In this document: positions 7,470-15,442 of the stretch, piece after piece
Layout of the letters: each line of letters begins with the position of its first letter
How positions within the stretch are numbered: the first letter of the stretch is position 1
IMG/VR virus record: IMGVR_UViG_3300033388_003690
Location: 1-22,707 of that record
Direction: 5' to 3' (one strand)
Source: a virus
DNA: 22,707 bases
The notes under the pieces: generated by a model
Database searches by the model: none
Seen by the model: the letters and a program-made list of their open reading frames with translations, nothing else
What the model was told of the DNA's origin: nothing
Translations under genes and position numbers: made by a program

Positions 7470-8129
7470 TTAGTTTGATAATGCTGCTCCGGTTATATTA
7501 GTTAAACCACCTACCATACCAGTAATAGCTGATGTTTCATCTGCTCTTGCTTGAGCTTCAGCAGCAGCAGCTCCAGATATTTGAGATGAAATACGATCCA
7601 ACTGCTGTTGTTCTCTTCTTTCTCTTTGATTAAAAACAAATTGTTTACCAGCTACATCTGCTTGTTGTAATCTTGCTTGCTCTCCTACTAGTTGCTGATT
7701 TAATGTAGCTTCACCTTGAGCTCTAGCTCTTTCATTAGATGCTTCTTGTTGTTCTATACTAGCTGCAACACCTTGCTTACTTCTTAATGCTGCTTGAGCT
7801 AAAGCTGTGGCTCCACCGGCGCTAGCACCTGTGGCTCTCATAGTATCCAGCGTATTAGCTAGAGATATATCAGCTTCTTGTATTTTCATTTCAGCAGCCT
7901 GAGTAGCAACACCTAAATTAGCAAAAGGATTACTCATCATACTGCTTAAGTCAACTACACCAGCATATGGATTTATAATCTCTTGTCTATTTCTTTCAAG
8001 CTCAGTTAACTTAGCTTCAAGTTTAGCTTTTAAGGCCGCTGCTTTTCTCGCTGCTTTTTTTGCCTTACCGGCTCCAAATATACCAGAACCTATACTTAGT
8101 AGGCCGCCACCTACAGCTACATAACTCAT
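7470..8129 (-). CDS. T7 gp14-like internal virion (DNA ejection) protein
   Basis: This 219-residue protein opens with a Gly-rich hydrophobic stretch (VAVGGGLLSIGSGIFGAG, about residues 4-21), followed by a basic, Ala/Lys-rich helix (about 22-48) and an INPYAGV motif at 51-57. The rest is an Ala/Gln/Arg-rich, probably coiled-coil body to about residue 205, ending in a second Gly/Ala hydrophobic tail. This layout and size resemble T7 gp14 (about 196 residues) and related short ejection proteins of podoviruses, which insert in the host envelope at infection. Its ATG overlaps the stop of the cupin-like gene in an ATGA (8126-8129), implying translational coupling. The assignment is from composition and context and is moderately sure; a generic virion coiled-coil protein is the alternative. 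Confidence 0.7.
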   Translation of the reverse strand: MSYVAVGGGLLSIGSGIFGAGKAKKAARKAAALKAKLEAKLTELERNRQEIINPYAGVVDLSSMMSNPFANLGVATQAAEMKIQEADISLANTLDTMRATGASAGGATALAQAALRSKQGVAASIEQQEASNERARAQGEATLNQQLVGEQARLQQADVAGKQFVFNQRERREQQQLDRISSQISGAAAAEAQARADETSAITGMVGGLTNITGAALSN

Positions 8130-8587
8130 ATTTTATCTATTTTTTGTTTGTTTTCAAGTTGTAAATAATATTCATCATATGTATTAACAACATTATTTTT
8201 TTCTAATTTTTCAATATTTTTTTCATTTGAGGGATTAGCAAAAACATTAGTAAATATACACTCTTCTAGTGCATATACAGCTCTTTTAATACCTGGTCTT
8301 GATATTATAGTTTTTGGAGCTTCTATTGTTTGTCTTCCGTTTTCTTCATCTACTATTATCATTTTGCCTTTTAATAAAAAGCTTACATGTTCATGTAGAT
8401 GTATTTTCCCAATAGCAAAAATACCTTTTGGTATTGTTATTTCTCTTATATGCATGCCATCTGCGAAAGAGTTTTTAACAGGGCAGTTATCTGTGTCATT
8501 GAAAAACACAGAACCCTCAGGTAAATCGCGTAAACTCTCTTCAAAACTAACAATATTATTTCTTAGTTTCTTAGCTATTTTATTCAT
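8126..8587 (-). CDS. Cupin-fold small phage protein
   Basis: This is a 153-residue protein. Residues about 45-117 read as a single cupin barrel: HIREITIPKGIFAIGKIH, then HLHEH at 63-67, a turn Gly74, and a second motif with PG at 98-99 before KRAVYALEECIFTNVF. The His cluster (H63, H65, H67) could bind a metal, but the second-motif His is missing, so the site is incomplete. The ending 'PGIKRAVYA' after a 'GKIH.H.H' block is a pattern I recall from phage cupins that lie near head or tail genes. Its function there is unsettled: structural decoration or small-molecule/metal binding are options. It overlaps the next gene by 4 bases. The C-terminal 30 residues are charged and helical. Confidence 0.72.
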   Translation of the reverse strand: MNKIAKKLRNNIVSFEESLRDLPEGSVFFNDTDNCPVKNSFADGMHIREITIPKGIFAIGKIHLHEHVSFLLKGKMIIVDEENGRQTIEAPKTIISRPGIKRAVYALEECIFTNVFANPSNEKNIEKLEKNNVVNTYDEYYLQLENKQKIDKI

Positions 8588-8597
8588 TTAATTTAAT

Positions 8598-10562
8598 TTA
8601 AAAACCGTTATTAGCAGTGTATGTTGTGCTAACTTGGAACAATTGTTTTTCACCACCTGGATCTGTTGTTGTATCTGTAGACAGTGTTACGTTTGCATAA
8701 AAACCTTTTATACCAGCTATTTGCTCTTGACCAAAGTTTACTTCACCTGCGTTAAGTCTTGAATTATTACTTAAGCTAGCTACGTATTTATTTTCTTTTC
8801 TATTAAATCCTTCATAGTATTTATTTATAAAATTTGGATTAGATGTTCCAAAAACAGCTGGATAATCACTATTATTTACAAACAAACTAAAAGAAAGTTG
8901 AGCAAACTGCGCTATATCTAAATCTTGATTAACTACTAATATTCCAGTTGCTGGATCATAACTGTCTACAATTGTACCTAAAGCAACACCTAGCCCAGTA
9001 ACAGTGGAACCTACGGGTATTATAATTTGATTTGAATTATCATATATTCCAGATACGTTTTGTATAACTACAGTTGTAGTTGTTGAAGCTGCGTTAGCAG
9101 TTGCAGTTGCTTGAATATACGTATATTCACCTTCTTGATAACTAGGTATAGCACCTGTAGAATCAAAAGTCTCTATCCATGTTTGTGATGTTGTTGAAAA
9201 ATCATAACCTTTTGGATCTGATGTAATACCTGATCTATCTAATTGCCAGCCACTACTACCTTCATAAGATATAGTTAAGAAAGATTTAGATTTAACAGGA
9301 TTATCATTAACTACAAAGCTAACAGACGCTGGATATCTTCTACCATAAAAACTAGCTCTAGGTTCAGTTGGTGCATAGTGTTTATATAAACCTGAAGAAG
9401 CACCAAAAAACATTTTTAAATCACTTGTATATGTTCTTGGTGGTGATATAGTAACTTGATTTGTACCAGCGTCAAAACCAATAACAGTTCCAAGATTTGT
9501 AAGAGGTGTTGGACATGGTGCACTTAAACAACCAGTTACTTTCATGCCAGGAACTATATCACCGCTTACAGCTGTTAATTGAAATACAGTCATTGGTTGA
9601 GGTGCAGCTGCATTTCCAACTGTTTGTCCAAAAGCAAGTGTACTATCTAACGTTTTAACAGAGTAAAATTCATTTCTTAAGCTAAACATTTGATCTGGTT
9701 CGTAATCAAAAAAGCTAACCCAACCATTATATTTGCTATCATAAGATAACGTATAGAAGTTTCGCTCGTCTTTATTTAAAACTGGGTTACCCTGTAAAGA
9801 AGTTACATATTGTTTATTATGAACATCATAACCGCCAATAACATATCCTTCACTTATAGAATTATCAATAACTTCTAAAGATGTTCTAAAGAAATTCTTC
9901 ATGCCAAAATAAGATATTTCACTTATTCCAGAGCCATTTAATTCTAAAATAACATTATTATTTTTATCAGAAAAATATTGACTATATCCGTATTGAGCAA
10001 AACTTTCTGGATTTTTACTTATACCATATTCACCTATGTAAGGTTGCAAAGTGCCTATAACTAAATTACTTGAAGTAACAGCTCCGCCACCTTCAGCAGC
10101 ATATATAGCATCTTTATCAATAAGAGCTCTACTAACCTTTAGTTCTTGAAATACATTTAAATTTGAATCAGAAGCATAAAGTTTTTGTATTGAGCCATTT
10201 GAGGGATCTGCTGATTTAGTAATATCTTCACCTATAGAAAAAACATTGCTTTGATTTATACCTGTTCTTGAATTAAATATACCAGAGTATATTAAAGAGT
10301 TTCCTAAAAAAGACGCATCAGTTTCTTCCTCAACTATATAAGCTTTAACTCCAAAGTCAACAGAGGTATTATTGTAACCACCTGTTATTCTAGATTCTTC
10401 AATAACCCAGTTATTTTCGTCTACAGTACCAGGAACTACTTCATAACCGCCTAAATCTTCAGGTATACCTCTAGAACCGTTCCATATAGGCATCTCCGAA
10501 CCATTATTGGTTTTATGAAGAGTAAATGTGTTAAAGTATTTTATTTCAATTACAGCACCCAT
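8598..10562 (-). CDS. Tail-tip (muzzle-like) structural protein with inserted beta domains
   Basis: This 654-residue, beta-rich protein has Asn/Ser/Thr/Tyr-rich composition and no membrane segment. A conserved-looking core includes YNGWVSFFDYEPD (278-290), NEFYSVK (297-303), GLYKHYAP (391-398), a FYGRRY..SVSFVVND block (405-420), SFLTISYEGSSGW (427-439) and a C-terminal GIKGFYANV (617-625). I associate this set with the distal tail (muzzle) protein of crAss-like and marine podoviruses. Two beta domains (about 322-388 and 484-561) interrupt this core and resemble the repeats in the upstream 1617-residue gene. The ATG at 10562 follows an AT-only leader, 26 bases after the upstream stop. It is likely part of the tail tip that contacts the cell. 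The name is from recognition; the structural role is fairly sure. Confidence 0.72.
   Translation of the reverse strand: MGAVIEIKYFNTFTLHKTNNGSEMPIWNGSRGIPEDLGGYEVVPGTVDENNWVIEESRITGGYNNTSVDFGVKAYIVEEETDASFLGNSLIYSGIFNSRTGINQSNVFSIGEDITKSADPSNGSIQKLYASDSNLNVFQELKVSRALIDKDAIYAAEGGGAVTSSNLVIGTLQPYIGEYGISKNPESFAQYGYSQYFSDKNNNVILELNGSGISEISYFGMKNFFRTSLEVIDNSISEGYVIGGYDVHNKQYVTSLQGNPVLNKDERNFYTLSYDSKYNGWVSFFDYEPDQMFSLRNEFYSVKTLDSTLAFGQTVGNAAAPQPMTVFQLTAVSGDIVPGMKVTGCLSAPCPTPLTNLGTVIGFDAGTNQVTISPPRTYTSDLKMFFGASSGLYKHYAPTEPRASFYGRRYPASVSFVVNDNPVKSKSFLTISYEGSSGWQLDRSGITSDPKGYDFSTTSQTWIETFDSTGAIPSYQEGEYTYIQATATANAASTTTTVVIQNVSGIYDNSNQIIIPVGSTVTGLGVALGTIVDSYDPATGILVVNQDLDIAQFAQLSFSLFVNNSDYPAVFGTSNPNFINKYYEGFNRKENKYVASLSNNSRLNAGEVNFGQEQIAGIKGFYANVTLSTDTTTDPGGEKQLFQVSTTYTANNGF
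8880..9113 (-). repeat. Dispersed beta-domain, copy 7 (residues 484-561 of the 654-residue protein)
   Basis: The core reads IIIPVGSTVTGLGVALGT, then IVDSYDP, a short turn, ILVVNQ and a final LSFSLF strand. This is the clearest copy of the pattern 'hydrophobic-x-GxxVxGxG....GT-x-V....D....V-x-L/V......LxF' shared with the other copies. It begins after the EGEYTYIQ segment and ends before NNSDYPAVFG. Confidence 0.6.
9402..9599 (-). repeat. Dispersed beta-domain, copy 6 (residues 322-388 of the 654-residue protein)
   Basis: The core reads SGDIVPGMKVTG, a Cys-flanked loop (CLSAPC), NLGTVIGFD, NQVTISP and a closing LKMFFG strand. It separates NEFYSVK from GLYKHYAP, two pieces that look as if they belong next to each other. 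The two cysteines in the loop are peculiar to this copy. Confidence 0.6.
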
Positions 10563-10588
10563 GTTTATTATTATTACTTATTTTTTTA

Positions 10589-13500
10589 TTAAGTTACTAC
10601 AGCCCACGTATATTGATCTAATCCAAACTGTTCAGCATTAGCACTTATCTCTAATACACCACCTGGTGCTGATAAAATAGTTCCAGCCGAGCCAGGTGTT
10701 GGAACAACTGCATATGGTGAAACTCTCTCTGTCATTCCTGGTACACAATATGCTGGCGCTCCTAAAGGATTGAAATTACACTCAGCCGGCGTGCCATCTG
10801 TGCCAGCATTATATGGAACACCAGAAGGAAATGGCCAAACTTGAGAATACCTGCATGGTTGAGATCCACCAACACCACCATTAAACCACTCGTCAAAAGC
10901 AGCTACTTCAGTACCTCCAAATTTTAATTGTTGTATTCCAGTATTTTTATTTGCAAAATCAACTTGTAACACATTGTTTTCGTCAGCTAAATTTTCAACT
11001 AAACCTGAGTTCCAAGCACCAATAGGCGACCAAGTAGTACTGTGTCCAACAGGTGAGTTAGGAACACCTCCAAAATAACTGTAAAAATATAAAAAGCTGG
11101 AATAGCTAAAAGGTCCGTTATATATATACCAACCTTGAGACTCAGTAGGTCCACTTGTTACTTCAAAGAAGGTTACAAATTGAAAAGCTAAACTTGGAGT
11201 AGCTGTATTGTACCAATTTGGATTATAATTAGGAGAATCTGGTGGCAAGCTAATATCTCTAGTTAAAACTATTTTTTGATAAACATTTTCAACCGTAACA
11301 CCCATGTTTATTATTATATCTACTTCATCTGCAAAACTACCTCCTCCAGCATCTTGTACTTTTATTGTTAGATAATATGTTTCTACAGGAAGCGTGTTTA
11401 TAGCATTATTTACTAAGTTCCAAGTACCGTCTACGTTACCAGTTAGAGAAGTAGGTTGTATTATAAAAAAGTCAACCTCAGGACCATCTACAGATCCTTG
11501 GGTTTGAGAAATTATAGTACAATCACCGGCATTAAATATGCCTGAAAGTGGAAAAGTAGTATTAGCACTTCCATTTTGAGCTTCTATAGATGTTATAATT
11601 TCAGTCGCAGGAGTTGCTGTAAAAGTTTGACCATTAGTAGGCGTTGATATTGTAGGCGCTACATTTTGTAAAGCAATTTGTTCTTCAAAAATTGTTTCTA
11701 ATCCATTTACAACAGCTCTAAATGTAAAATTAAAAATTCTAGTATCTGGAACATAATTGTAAAATATTGTATCAAAGTATTGACTTGTAGTTTTTACATT
11801 GAATAAGTTACTAGAAGCAACTTGTGTTAGTACAAAATAATTGTTAACAAGTTGACCCAGGTTATCAAAAACACTAACTATTTCTAATGTTTCATCAATA
11901 TCAGCGTTGGGTACTATTTGACCAAAATTATCTAAAATACTAAAAGGAGCTGCAAATATTTCACCTCCTGAAGCAAGATCCTCAGCAAAAGGACTAGGAT
12001 TTAAACTACTAAGACTAGCCCCACCAGATTGACCATCTATTACAGCATTATTTATGTCTGATATTAAACCACTAGTAGATGACTCCCAGAATATATCTAA
12101 TAAACTTTCAACAGGTTCTGTTTCATAAACAGCAAGATATTGAAGTCCAGGCGTAGCGTCATTAACAATAGTTATTGGTTGATCTAAACTTACACTAACC
12201 GGTTTATTTACTTTTATTCTAGCTGGATTATAAAATTCTATGGTAACACCGTTAGAAATATTTATAACATTATTTAATGTTAAAACTGGATTAGGAGTAG
12301 CAGTAGCATCTATGTTTGTTATAACAGTTCCGGCAGGTATACTTGTTGCTGAAGCTGGATTTATAATTAAATCACCTACGGTTATTACAGGAGCAGGTGA
12401 ACCTATCGATGCAACTTCTACTTGATTACTAATTGAAGCTGCCGCTGTTGTTGTTGTTAAAACTAACTGTTCAGCAGTATAACCAGGAGTCTCAATTACT
12501 AAATCATCTGGAAAACCTGAACCTAAAACTTTGTCGCCTGGATTTATCGTAGCAGTATCACCAGCAACACTAGCTAATAATATTATATCAGTAGTACTAG
12601 CAACAGCAACTTGAGCACTTACTGTATCATAATTAGTTGTAGATATTTGACCTATTTTAGCGTGTGTACTTATTCTTGCTATTAGAGGGTTTGACTCTAA
12701 ATCATAAAATTGTGGAAAATAATCTGGTCTCGGCGCGTCGTCACCTATGGGTGTATAATCAAATAAATCTCTAACAGTTGATATAGTAGAAACTATATCA
12801 TTAAATCTTTCAGGGTAATATTGTTTATTAGAACTACCTAGATCAGTCGTAGGGTCAATTAAATTATCTGTGTTTTCAACTCGGCCAAATAATTTTACAG
12901 AACTTCTAAATTGTCTTTGCTCTGGTCCAACTTCATTTAAATCTCTTGGAACTTTGTTAATATTATCATTTATTAAAACAATATGAGATGTCGTGCCAAG
13001 CTCTAATGTAGGATCAGATGGATAAGATGCCATTATACCTGGTAAGTATACATTGTAATATTCTTGCTCTGTTTGTTTAACAACCACTTTATAAGAATAC
13101 CAACCTAATGGATTATAAGATGGTGAGGTAGGATCACCATTATAAACGCCAGGCGTTCCAGTTTCCGCGTTAAACGTTGAATCTATAGTTTGATTAAGCA
13201 AAAGCTTAATAGAATTACCAGGCCATTGAGATGGTACTATAGCCTCATCTATATATGGAGAGTAAATAGTAGAACCTGAAAAAGGTATTCCATTTACAGT
13301 TATTGTATCTTTATTATTTGAAAGTATAACAGAAGATGATCTACCGTATCTATCTGATAAAACAATACCTACTTGATAATTTCTATTTGATTTAACACTG
13401 TGGTTAGGATATTCTATAATACTAGTAGTTTTAGATGTATCTGATCCAGGTTGAAATAAAACAATATCAGCAGCAACTAAATTAGTAACAGCGTTGGTTA

Positions 13501-15442
13501 ATACAATATCCCAGTCACCGGGAGTTACCGCGTTTGGAGTTACAGAAACAACTTGAGTATCCGTTGGTATAATACCTGTGCCTACAACCAATGTTATAAA
13601 ATCACCTACATTAGGTGGCACAGTTCCTTTACGTATCGTTATAGTAGTTCCATTATAAGGACCACCAATAATATCTGCTTCTTCTGTTTTCAAATCAAAG
13701 TCTGATTTTGCAGAAACAGAAACATTGTAATTTAAAAACTTAGGTGGAGTATGTTTGTCTTGAAAATTACCGTATATAACCCTATTTCCTGAAACTTCTT
13801 GAGCTAAAGCTTTTACAGGAACTTTATCGTAAACTCTAATTAAATCTTTTTCTGGAAGTGTTTTAAATGGTTTTTTAGACTGATAATCAAAAACAAAATA
13901 ATCAGGATTATTTATATTTAAAACAACATTATCTACTAATGTTTGAGCTATATCAACTTCAATATCACCACCACTAGAAGGATTATTTGGATTTATTGGA
14001 TCAAATGAAACAACAACTGGTTTACCTGTTATACCAAAACCACTTACTATTCCACCTATTGGAACACCACCTTCTAAATTATCTACTGTTATAGTTGTGC
14101 TAGCTGTAACAGCTCCATCAACAGTAACAGTACCAGCTGATTGCTCTACATCAGCTATAACAACATTATCTATAACCTTTACAGCGGTAGAATCTGACTC
14201 CTTATATAATATATCTATTTCTTTTACTTTTAAACTATCTCGTAAATTATAGTTCTTAAAAGGTAGTGGTATTCTAAGCTTGATGTCGTTTACTTTATTT
14301 TTCATAAAAGAAACAACAGTACTTCTATACGTATCACTTTGATCCTCTATTTCGTTTAGATTATCTTTTTTAACATATAAAAAATAACCGTCTTGTTCTG
14401 GTATAAAAGCAGCTTGTGTAAATGGAGCAAATAAAGAATATTCGTTATCTTCAAATTTAAATCTATAACTAAATCTAGAAAATTTATCTTCTAAAAAATC
14501 TGGATCACCAGCAAAACTAGGATTATAATATGGATTAGGATTTAAAATAATATCACTTAATGTTGTTAAATCTGGAAATACACCACCTACTATAGTAAAT
14601 GTCCATACAGAAGTTACAGGATCATAAACAGCAGTATCAAGTGTCGCGCCAGATATAATAACTAATTCACCAGTGTCAAAAGTTGTATAACCTATTGTTG
14701 CGGCTGTTGGATATGAACCTCCAGGTTCAACTATATCACCAACAAAACTGTTAACATCTACAGTAGTAGCTCCAGCAGCCACTGGACTATCGACATTACC
14801 ATAACCACCATTTGGATAACTTTTTGAAACAACGTCTTTCATTGTTGATTCATAGTCATTATCATTAGGAGATAAATAACTTTCGTCATATAAATCAATA
14901 CAGTTGTAAGGATTATACTTAGCAACACTTATTTGATCTTCTGTTGTGTAATAATTTACATTTGCTTTAGCTTGACTAATATTTATAACTCTTGGTTGAT
15001 TTCTATTATCTGTCCAAAAAAGTAAATTCTCTAAAACATTTGATCCATATATAGGGTTTTCTCTTGAAAAATTTAAAAAAGACCCTTCAACAAGTATTGT
15101 AGACGTTTCGGTTTGAGAATTATATTGAATTATAAAATTATTAGCATTTGGAGAATATCTAATGTTTGGTTTATCAAACCAGTCTGTCCAAAACAAATAA
15201 ACATCACTTGTTTCGTTGTTAACACAATGACCTATACAATATAAATCGCTAACACCAGTTAAATCATCAATGTCTAATACATTAACATTACCTAAAATGT
15301 TTTCAAGAGATCCAGCGTTTTCTGTTTCAGAAGCACTTACTTGAACGTTTTTAGCAGTTCTATATTCTCCGTTTGGCATCAAACGAGAATCTAAGTCCTG
15401 ATTCATCTTGGACTTTATAAATGTATTTATAGATTTAGCCAT
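10589..15442 (-). CDS. Large multidomain tail protein (nozzle/stabilisation-type N-terminus, beta-domain repeats)
   Basis: This is a 1617-residue protein. Residues 12-50 (KMNQDLDSRLMPNGEYRTAK, then NVQVS..ET and LENILGN) form a start block I recall from tail nozzle/stabilisation proteins of marine podoviruses. Next come propeller-like strands with LFWTDW and LLFWTDNRNQPRVIN (140-154). Degenerate beta domains occur at about 217-302, 435-510, 594-664 and, in tandem, 942-1071. An Ig/cadherin-like segment spans about 1262-1382. The C-terminal 200 residues are aromatic- and Gly/Pro-rich with cysteines at about 1530, 1555 and 1566, suiting an exposed, possibly receptor-binding tip. No membrane segment or signal peptide is seen. 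The ATG is 6 bases after the upstream stop. A tail component is near certain; the exact part is inferred. Confidence 0.75.
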   Translation of the reverse strand: MAKSINTFIKSKMNQDLDSRLMPNGEYRTAKNVQVSASETENAGSLENILGNVNVLDIDDLTGVSDLYCIGHCVNNETSDVYLFWTDWFDKPNIRYSPNANNFIIQYNSQTETSTILVEGSFLNFSRENPIYGSNVLENLLFWTDNRNQPRVINISQAKANVNYYTTEDQISVAKYNPYNCIDLYDESYLSPNDNDYESTMKDVVSKSYPNGGYGNVDSPVAAGATTVDVNSFVGDIVEPGGSYPTAATIGYTTFDTGELVIISGATLDTAVYDPVTSVWTFTIVGGVFPDLTTLSDIILNPNPYYNPSFAGDPDFLEDKFSRFSYRFKFEDNEYSLFAPFTQAAFIPEQDGYFLYVKKDNLNEIEDQSDTYRSTVVSFMKNKVNDIKLRIPLPFKNYNLRDSLKVKEIDILYKESDSTAVKVIDNVVIADVEQSAGTVTVDGAVTASTTITVDNLEGGVPIGGIVSGFGITGKPVVVSFDPINPNNPSSGGDIEVDIAQTLVDNVVLNINNPDYFVFDYQSKKPFKTLPEKDLIRVYDKVPVKALAQEVSGNRVIYGNFQDKHTPPKFLNYNVSVSAKSDFDLKTEEADIIGGPYNGTTITIRKGTVPPNVGDFITLVVGTGIIPTDTQVVSVTPNAVTPGDWDIVLTNAVTNLVAADIVLFQPGSDTSKTTSIIEYPNHSVKSNRNYQVGIVLSDRYGRSSSVILSNNKDTITVNGIPFSGSTIYSPYIDEAIVPSQWPGNSIKLLLNQTIDSTFNAETGTPGVYNGDPTSPSYNPLGWYSYKVVVKQTEQEYYNVYLPGIMASYPSDPTLELGTTSHIVLINDNINKVPRDLNEVGPEQRQFRSSVKLFGRVENTDNLIDPTTDLGSSNKQYYPERFNDIVSTISTVRDLFDYTPIGDDAPRPDYFPQFYDLESNPLIARISTHAKIGQISTTNYDTVSAQVAVASTTDIILLASVAGDTATINPGDKVLGSGFPDDLVIETPGYTAEQLVLTTTTAAASISNQVEVASIGSPAPVITVGDLIINPASATSIPAGTVITNIDATATPNPVLTLNNVINISNGVTIEFYNPARIKVNKPVSVSLDQPITIVNDATPGLQYLAVYETEPVESLLDIFWESSTSGLISDINNAVIDGQSGGASLSSLNPSPFAEDLASGGEIFAAPFSILDNFGQIVPNADIDETLEIVSVFDNLGQLVNNYFVLTQVASSNLFNVKTTSQYFDTIFYNYVPDTRIFNFTFRAVVNGLETIFEEQIALQNVAPTISTPTNGQTFTATPATEIITSIEAQNGSANTTFPLSGIFNAGDCTIISQTQGSVDGPEVDFFIIQPTSLTGNVDGTWNLVNNAINTLPVETYYLTIKVQDAGGGSFADEVDIIINMGVTVENVYQKIVLTRDISLPPDSPNYNPNWYNTATPSLAFQFVTFFEVTSGPTESQGWYIYNGPFSYSSFLYFYSYFGGVPNSPVGHSTTWSPIGAWNSGLVENLADENNVLQVDFANKNTGIQQLKFGGTEVAAFDEWFNGGVGGSQPCRYSQVWPFPSGVPYNAGTDGTPAECNFNPLGAPAYCVPGMTERVSPYAVVPTPGSAGTILSAPGGVLEISANAEQFGLDQYTWAVVT
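12230..12430 (-). repeat. Dispersed beta-domain, copy 5 (residues 1005-1071)
   Basis: The core reads VITVGDLIINPASATSIPAG, then TVITNID, PVLTLNN and a final VTIEFY strand. It follows copy 4 with no linker, forming a tandem pair in the 1617-residue tail protein. Confidence 0.5.
12431..12619 (-). repeat. Dispersed beta-domain, copy 4 (residues 942-1004)
   Basis: The core reads ASTTDIILLASVAGD, TINPGDKVLGSGFPDD, LVIETPG, QLVLTTTTAAA and a closing strand running into the next copy. The 'PGDKVLGSGFPDD' piece matches the GxxVxGxG pattern best among the copies of this gene. Confidence 0.55.
13451..13663 (-). repeat. Dispersed beta-domain, copy 3 (residues 594-664)
   Basis: The core reads NGTTITIRKGTVPPNVGDFI, a short GTGIIPTDTQVVSV segment, then WDIVLTN and ADIVLF. 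It shares the 'VGD....G.GI...T.VV.V' order with the other copies. It interrupts a sequence otherwise concerned with framework strands. Confidence 0.5.
13913..14140 (-). repeat. Dispersed beta-domain, copy 2 (residues 435-510)
   Basis: The core reads ASTTITVDNLEGGVPIGGIV, SGFGITGKPVVVSFDP, a NPNNPSSGG loop, DIEVDIAQ and VVLNI. The 'STTITV' lead-in strand and 'G..VSGFGI' turn match copy 7 of the neighbouring gene. Confidence 0.55.
14537..14794 (-). repeat. Dispersed beta-domain, possible copy 1 (residues 217-302)
   Basis: The segment begins AAGATTVDVNSFVGD and continues with a longer loop, then TGELVIISGATLD, VYDPVTSVWTFTIVGGVF and SDIIL. It has the lead-in 'ATTVDV' strand and the closing strand, but the GxxVxGxG turn is weak. 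This is the least certain member. Confidence 0.35.

Follow-up and report, generated by a model that had tools for sequence, protein, structure and literature searches.

The muzzle locus

The window, by which we mean the whole analysed stretch of 22,707 nucleotides, is a 22.7-kb piece of DNA from an uncultured crAss-like phage. Two of its minus-strand genes carry seven candidate copies of a small beta domain, in the following called the module, all in frame and located where the initial annotation had placed them:

10589..15442, minus strand: muzzle-N gene, 1617 aa, N-terminal part of the crAss-like muzzle (tail-tip) protein, with copies 1-5
8598..10562, minus strand: muzzle-C gene, 654 aa, second part of the muzzle, with copies 6-7

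Residues 3-173 of muzzle-N match the Pfam family crAss_MUZ (PF25731, E = 5e-13, 48.6 bits at a cut-off of 27), and the protein also matches phrog_14478 (E = 2e-43). Muzzle-C matches crAss_MUZ_C (PF25729, E = 3e-7, 31.1 bits at a cut-off of 27) as well as positions 935-1151 of phrog_14478 (E = 3e-38), so that the two genes cover separate parts of this family. The genes adjoining them match the virion structural PHROGs 13977, 14543 and 13704, and the gene order is kept in relatives. Judged from these matches, a single crAss-like muzzle protein is split here, with its N-terminal part encoded by one gene and its C-terminal part by the other. Among relatives with a recognisable C part, the muzzle-C core is encoded by a separate ORF in 115 cases and by the same ORF in none, and a single muzzle ORF is found in the cultured Cellulophaga phage phi40:1, Tenacibaculum phage Gundel_1 and Flavobacterium phage elemoC. 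The crAss001 muzzle is likewise a single polypeptide, whereas that of the window clade is made from two genes; we treated the single polypeptide as a non-essential criterion of the family, the C part forming a Pfam family of its own. As the two genes represent one split muzzle, spread of the module "between genes" is here in part spread within a single tail-tip protein.

Muzzle-C is followed, before the next structural gene, by a gene for a 153-aa protein (8126-8587, minus strand) matching phrog_12032 (short tail fiber), which is present in the window, L003 and L013 and missing in L001, L005, L006 and L007, and is thus a second variable adhesin-like part beside the muzzle. A 31-nt repeat that is 84% identical occurs at 10544-10574, where it covers the muzzle-C start, and at 11287-11317 inside muzzle-N. 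This and other short DNA repeats were judged to be unrelated to the module. The two genes contain no direct repeat longer than 31 nt, in line with the low DNA identity described earlier for the copies, and an Rfam search gave no match.

The seven copies and their homology

The copies are as follows, with E-values from HMM searches:

14537..14821, minus strand: copy 1, site A, muzzle-N aa 208-302; probable divergent member of the module family
13907..14137, minus strand: copy 2, site B, muzzle-N aa 436-512; 2e-14, and 1e-11 from the copy-7 seed alone
13445..13687, minus strand: copy 3, site C, muzzle-N aa 586-666; 1e-8 from the copy-2 seed
12431..12622, minus strand: copy 4, site D1, muzzle-N aa 941-1004, first of a tandem pair; 2e-7 from the copy-2 seed
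12224..12430, minus strand: copy 5, site D2, muzzle-N aa 1005-1073, second of the tandem pair; 9e-8 from the copy-7 seed
9387..9650, minus strand: copy 6, muzzle-C aa 305-392; 7e-10 from the copy-7 seed
8871..9119, minus strand: copy 7, muzzle-C aa 482-564; 9e-11 from the copy-2 seed

The locations thus agree with the initial annotation, while the edges move by a few residues and copy 6 is better placed at approximately 9387-9650. The order of motifs it had listed reappears in the consensus T...GxI..GxxVxGxGIPxxTxVxS...T...LxF.

Pairwise protein identity between the copies of the window is low (about 20-33%), and single-sequence comparison is correspondingly weak, with only copies 2 and 7 matching clearly (approximately 30% over 76 aa, E = 4e-4). 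We therefore turn to iterated HMM searches, started from each copy alone; 79 IMG/VR muzzle loci were searched, and reversed proteins served as decoys. The copy-2 seed recovers copies 3 (1e-8), 4 (2e-7), 5 (1e-4) and 7 (9e-11), the copy-7 seed recovers copies 2, 3, 4, 5 and 6 (the latter at 7e-10), and the best reversed decoy in these two runs reaches 0.28. Seeds 1, 3, 4 and 6 alone find matches confined to their own site, and the linkage hence rests on the more typical copies. Profile-profile comparison, with profiles built from same-site relatives only and 21 backbone segments as controls, joins copies 3 and 5 (97%), 5 and 7 (96%), 2 and 7 (96%), 2 and 3 (94%), 2 and 6 (87%) and 4 and 5 (83%), which ties copies 2-7 together transitively. 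The controls score 20 or less, except for one (k11, 32) whose region holds modules in relatives. That copies 2-7 are one homologous domain family is therefore well supported at the level of sequence.

Copy 1 behaves differently, as its profile gives no direct join (best 31%, with copy 3) and the module HMM does not find it directly. The copy-1 HMM (7e-16) and the module HMM (1e-6) hit one and the same site-A segment in the relative L036, and this makes a diverged member the best reading of copy 1. From the L036 link and the strand order in the AlphaFold2 model (see below) it is a probable, divergent member of the module family. The initial proposal of one domain repeated about seven times in two adjacent tail genes consequently holds for copies 2-7, which HMMs and profiles join, and for copy 1 only in the sense of a divergent relative.

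Predicted fold and database matches

An AlphaFold2 model of copy 7, computed from an alignment of 49 modules, has six strands at a pLDDT of 95. In the model of muzzle-N residues 1-1090, which is of moderate quality as a whole (pLDDT 75, pTM 0.66), mean pLDDT over the copies is about 71-92, and the strand order is repeated at copies 1-3 and is less regular at the tandem copies 4 and 5. According to these models the copies share one six-strand order. Unrelated folds among the segments, which would speak against a single repeated domain, are not what the models give.

No matching family for the module was found in Pfam, NCBIfam or the PDB sequences. Compared with Pfam-A, the 49 modules have no common family, the best value being 0.0099 for one member in an Ig-like comparison; the BACON Pfam model matches none of them at E up to 1, and querying the PDB by sequence with either the module or muzzle-N returned no useful match. 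In a Foldseek search against the PDB, the nearest structures are small beta domains from tail and capsid proteins of phages, along with beta barrels (best E 0.016), among them Arthrobacter phage Bridgette (8eci chain 1), the JBD30 baseplate (8rk3) and the tail tip of phage Chi (8vjh), further matches being an E1 enzyme and the F1-ATPase barrel. With TM about 0.5-0.58, E about 0.02-0.6 and no sequence similarity, these small beta barrels indicate a likeness of fold class and not membership. Among predicted viral proteins (BFVD), 11 fold matches lie below 0.001, including cyanophage fibres, a collar protein and an HK97-type capsid protein; a fold search with the muzzle-N model gave no match below 1e-3. 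Module-like folds are also seen in BFVD models of giant-virus proteins, namely a collagen-repeat protein of Indivirus and an endosialidase chaperone of Mimivirus LCMiAC01.

Presence and absence in relatives

The sites were mapped on an alignment of 77 proteins, and in these 77 relatives each of them is all-or-none, containing either a module of approximately 65-90 aa or a short linker. Site B measures 80-90 aa when filled (19 relatives) and 10-30 aa when empty (57 relatives), site C 74-89 aa (38 relatives) and 0-15 aa (34 relatives), respectively, and site D 6-18, 66-91 or 133-154 aa, corresponding to zero, one or two modules. Site A is empty (17 aa) in L027, L069 and L077. On a backbone tree built without the module columns, parsimony requires at least 16 changes in total, the fewest at sites A, B, C and D being 2, 3, 4 and 7, respectively. 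In muzzle-C, the copy-6 insert is confined to the closest relatives of the window and absent in 10 of the 15 proteins compared, and copy 6 is the most recent gain in the window. The copy-7 site holds zero, one or two modules in relatives, with a tandem pair in L007, L009 and L011. Modules at further sites are present in L008 and L015, and in L017 and L018 a third structural gene, which lies two positions upstream of muzzle-N, holds an additional module. Relatives were thus inspected for each copy, and they are not all alike but differ in copy content.

The cultured Maribacter phage Panino (L327:6078-7211) carries one module in its muzzle-C part (E = 4e-4), which is closest to copy 5 of the window clade at approximately 31% identity and offers a laboratory handle on the module.

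How modules change

Two pairs of near relatives show modules changing within an otherwise conserved protein. L024 and L028, whose backbone proteins are 89% identical, differ by a clean, in-frame, module-sized presence/absence of 198 bp at site C; their DNA is otherwise mostly 75-90% identical, and the insert of L024 has diverged beyond what the module HMM can recognise. In L026 and L031 the DNA is approximately 95% identical on both sides of site D, drops to 46-59% across the module and then rises to 100%; the site-D modules are 36% identical, compared with 91% for the backbone, which shows a module exchanged through recombination. DNA identity of this pair dips at site A also, and L022 and L026 differ at site C too. 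The 7-mer GATCAAA flanks both sides of the site-C insert of L024 (about aa 517-590) that is missing from L028, which may be chance or a trace of deletion or insertion.

Overall, a module is closest to the same-site module of relatives in all except 13 of 145 cases, several of which arise from labelling, since the alignment partly swapped the labels D1 and D2 and pairs resting on those labels were ignored. The small number of off-site best matches indicates that movement between sites is rare. Within single phages, the muzzle-C module of L015 is 50% identical to the extra muzzle-N module, and the third-gene module of L017 is 44% identical to its site-B module. The modules are under purifying selection. 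In seven of eight pairs they nevertheless evolve more quickly than the backbone, with dN/dS of 0.13-0.35 versus 0.04-0.12, whereas the two are equal in L007/L009.

Module content is thus mostly inherited with the site, with occasional loss, gain and swap, and the copies within the window are old. The earlier view that they are old or exchanged from outside rather than fresh duplications is borne out as to their age, given identities of about 20-33%, and needs correction in that near relatives mostly inherit their copies with the site. That modules are present, absent or exchanged in virion genes is confirmed by the site lengths, the changes on the tree, the L024/L028 indel and the L026/L031 swap.

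Occurrence beyond crAss-like muzzles

The octapeptide GTGIPAGT, searched as a DNA pattern that selects for motif-bearing copies, occurs in at least 120 viral contigs, and the HMM finds the module in 108 of the 120 listed. Among the matches listed, shuffling the flanks while keeping the octapeptide leaves 0-1 of 114 sequences scoring, versus 102 of 114 unshuffled, so the octapeptide is not sufficient for a match; masking the octapeptide lowers detection from 102 to 16 of 114, which shows that this motif carries much of the HMM signal. Among the listed viral matches the module is carried by virion proteins of several kinds, including those of the baseplate wedge, sheath, fibre, head closure and minor head. 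When genomes of bacteria and archaea were searched with the same pattern, 34 of the 120 matches listed had the module; carriers here include autotransporter-like proteins, proteins with lectin and cadherin domains, a GDSL lipase and a flagellin. As both sets consist of listed, motif-selected matches, these counts are not estimates of prevalence. Searches of cultured phages by tblastn with the consensus or with single modules gave none or one weak match (a stabilization protein), since the module is too short and simple for tblastn. One bacterial protein (L261:3989-5125) has a flagellin N-terminal domain and carries the module at approximately residues 176-239, a part that is usually variable in flagellins.

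Relation to known accessory domains

Ig-like domains on tailed phages are small beta domains found in several kinds of virion proteins (Fraser et al., 2006, cited in PMC10385173 and PMC13370021). The module resembles them in being accessory, variable between close phages and present in virion proteins of unrelated phages, and phage Ig-like domains are thought to act at the virion surface. It differs from them in its placement, as it interrupts loops in many places along a single tail-tip protein, whereas Ig-like domains are strung at an end. As to fold, an Ig domain is a beta sandwich of seven or more strands; the module is modelled with six, and the best Foldseek matches are other small beta domains, with no Ig domain among them. 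The initial comparison with Ig-like insertions was therefore largely right about a spreading module, but Pfam and fold search give no support for an Ig-like domain, and the analogy is functional only. BACON domains of crAss-like phages form tandem repeats of a tail-associated beta domain that evolve by duplication and horizontal transfer of single domains (PMC6949934). Unlike BACON, the module lies in the muzzle itself, is scattered over different loops, never with more than two copies in a row, and has no match to the BACON Pfam model. In crAss001 the muzzle forms the tail tip, and according to PMC10172136 its length differs through insertions, which can influence surface properties; the passages covered describe the insertions (IG1/IG2, crass domain) in a general way and contain no recurrent exchangeable module. 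The likeness to our module is one by description. Promiscuous accessory beta domains of virions are hence already known (Ig-like, BACON), and the module belongs to neither by Pfam and works like them. No description of it was found in the open-licence literature, and an earlier report may exist elsewhere.

Interpretation

The muzzle of crAss-like phages is believed to contact the host surface and to restrain DNA release. We consider it likely that one six-stranded beta domain of approximately 65-90 aa sits in permissive loops of this protein and serves as an exchangeable surface decoration of the tail tip. The modules would decorate the exterior of the tail tip as folded units, and they may be tolerated because they bud from loops. 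Replacement of a module would alter the contacts or the exposure of the tail tip, while the scaffold that gates DNA release would stay conserved. A surface-binding role of the module is putative. Two observations weigh against this reading, namely the rarity of movement between sites and the moderate overall quality of the muzzle-N model.

The leading functional rival is that the modules are structural spacers or braces, which make the muzzle hexamer wider or stiffer and take no part in binding. This is rather unlikely. In its favour, IG domains belong to the crAss001 muzzle architecture (PMC10172136), the modules are under purifying selection and copies 2-5 are kept throughout the close clade of the window. 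Yet the sites are cleanly empty in many relatives with a conserved scaffold, and a 36%-identical module was swapped in with its surroundings unchanged, whereas a brace with fixed contacts should exchange less. Another possibility concerns history rather than function, namely that the copies are ancient duplications in one ancestor, inherited vertically ever since without real mobility. Same-site modules do cluster, the close clade shares one set of copies at sites A-D and DNA identity between the window copies is negligible. This explanation is nevertheless improbable in view of at least 16 presence changes on the tree, the swap and the clean indel between near relatives, and the presence of the module in a third gene as well as in unrelated virion proteins; vertical inheritance is contradicted for the whole clade and largely true for copies 2-5 of the window.

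That the similarity is only convergence of Thr/Gly/Val-rich beta segments might be thought from the low pairwise identity (~20-33%) and the simple composition. Reversed sequences of the same composition never score, however, flank shuffling abolishes the match, beta-rich backbone controls do not match and the six-strand order is common to the copies. Convergence is therefore very improbable overall; it is rejected, as is simple composition, for copies 2-7, and not fully for copy 1.

Returning to the exchangeable decoration, a wider reading can be offered tentatively, at somewhat less than an even chance: the module may be a plug-in domain, as yet without a name, that is very widespread in the virions of tailed phages and has a reach like that of phage Ig-like domains. 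It would move among the proteins of muzzle, baseplate, sheath, fibre and head and be shared with surface proteins of bacteria, and in marine crAss-like phages it would form an exchangeable surface array on the tail-tip gate. As the module is present, absent or swapped in near-identical phages, the role of muzzle insertions becomes directly testable, and with a named domain model annotators could recognise many unannotated virion proteins in environmental viruses.
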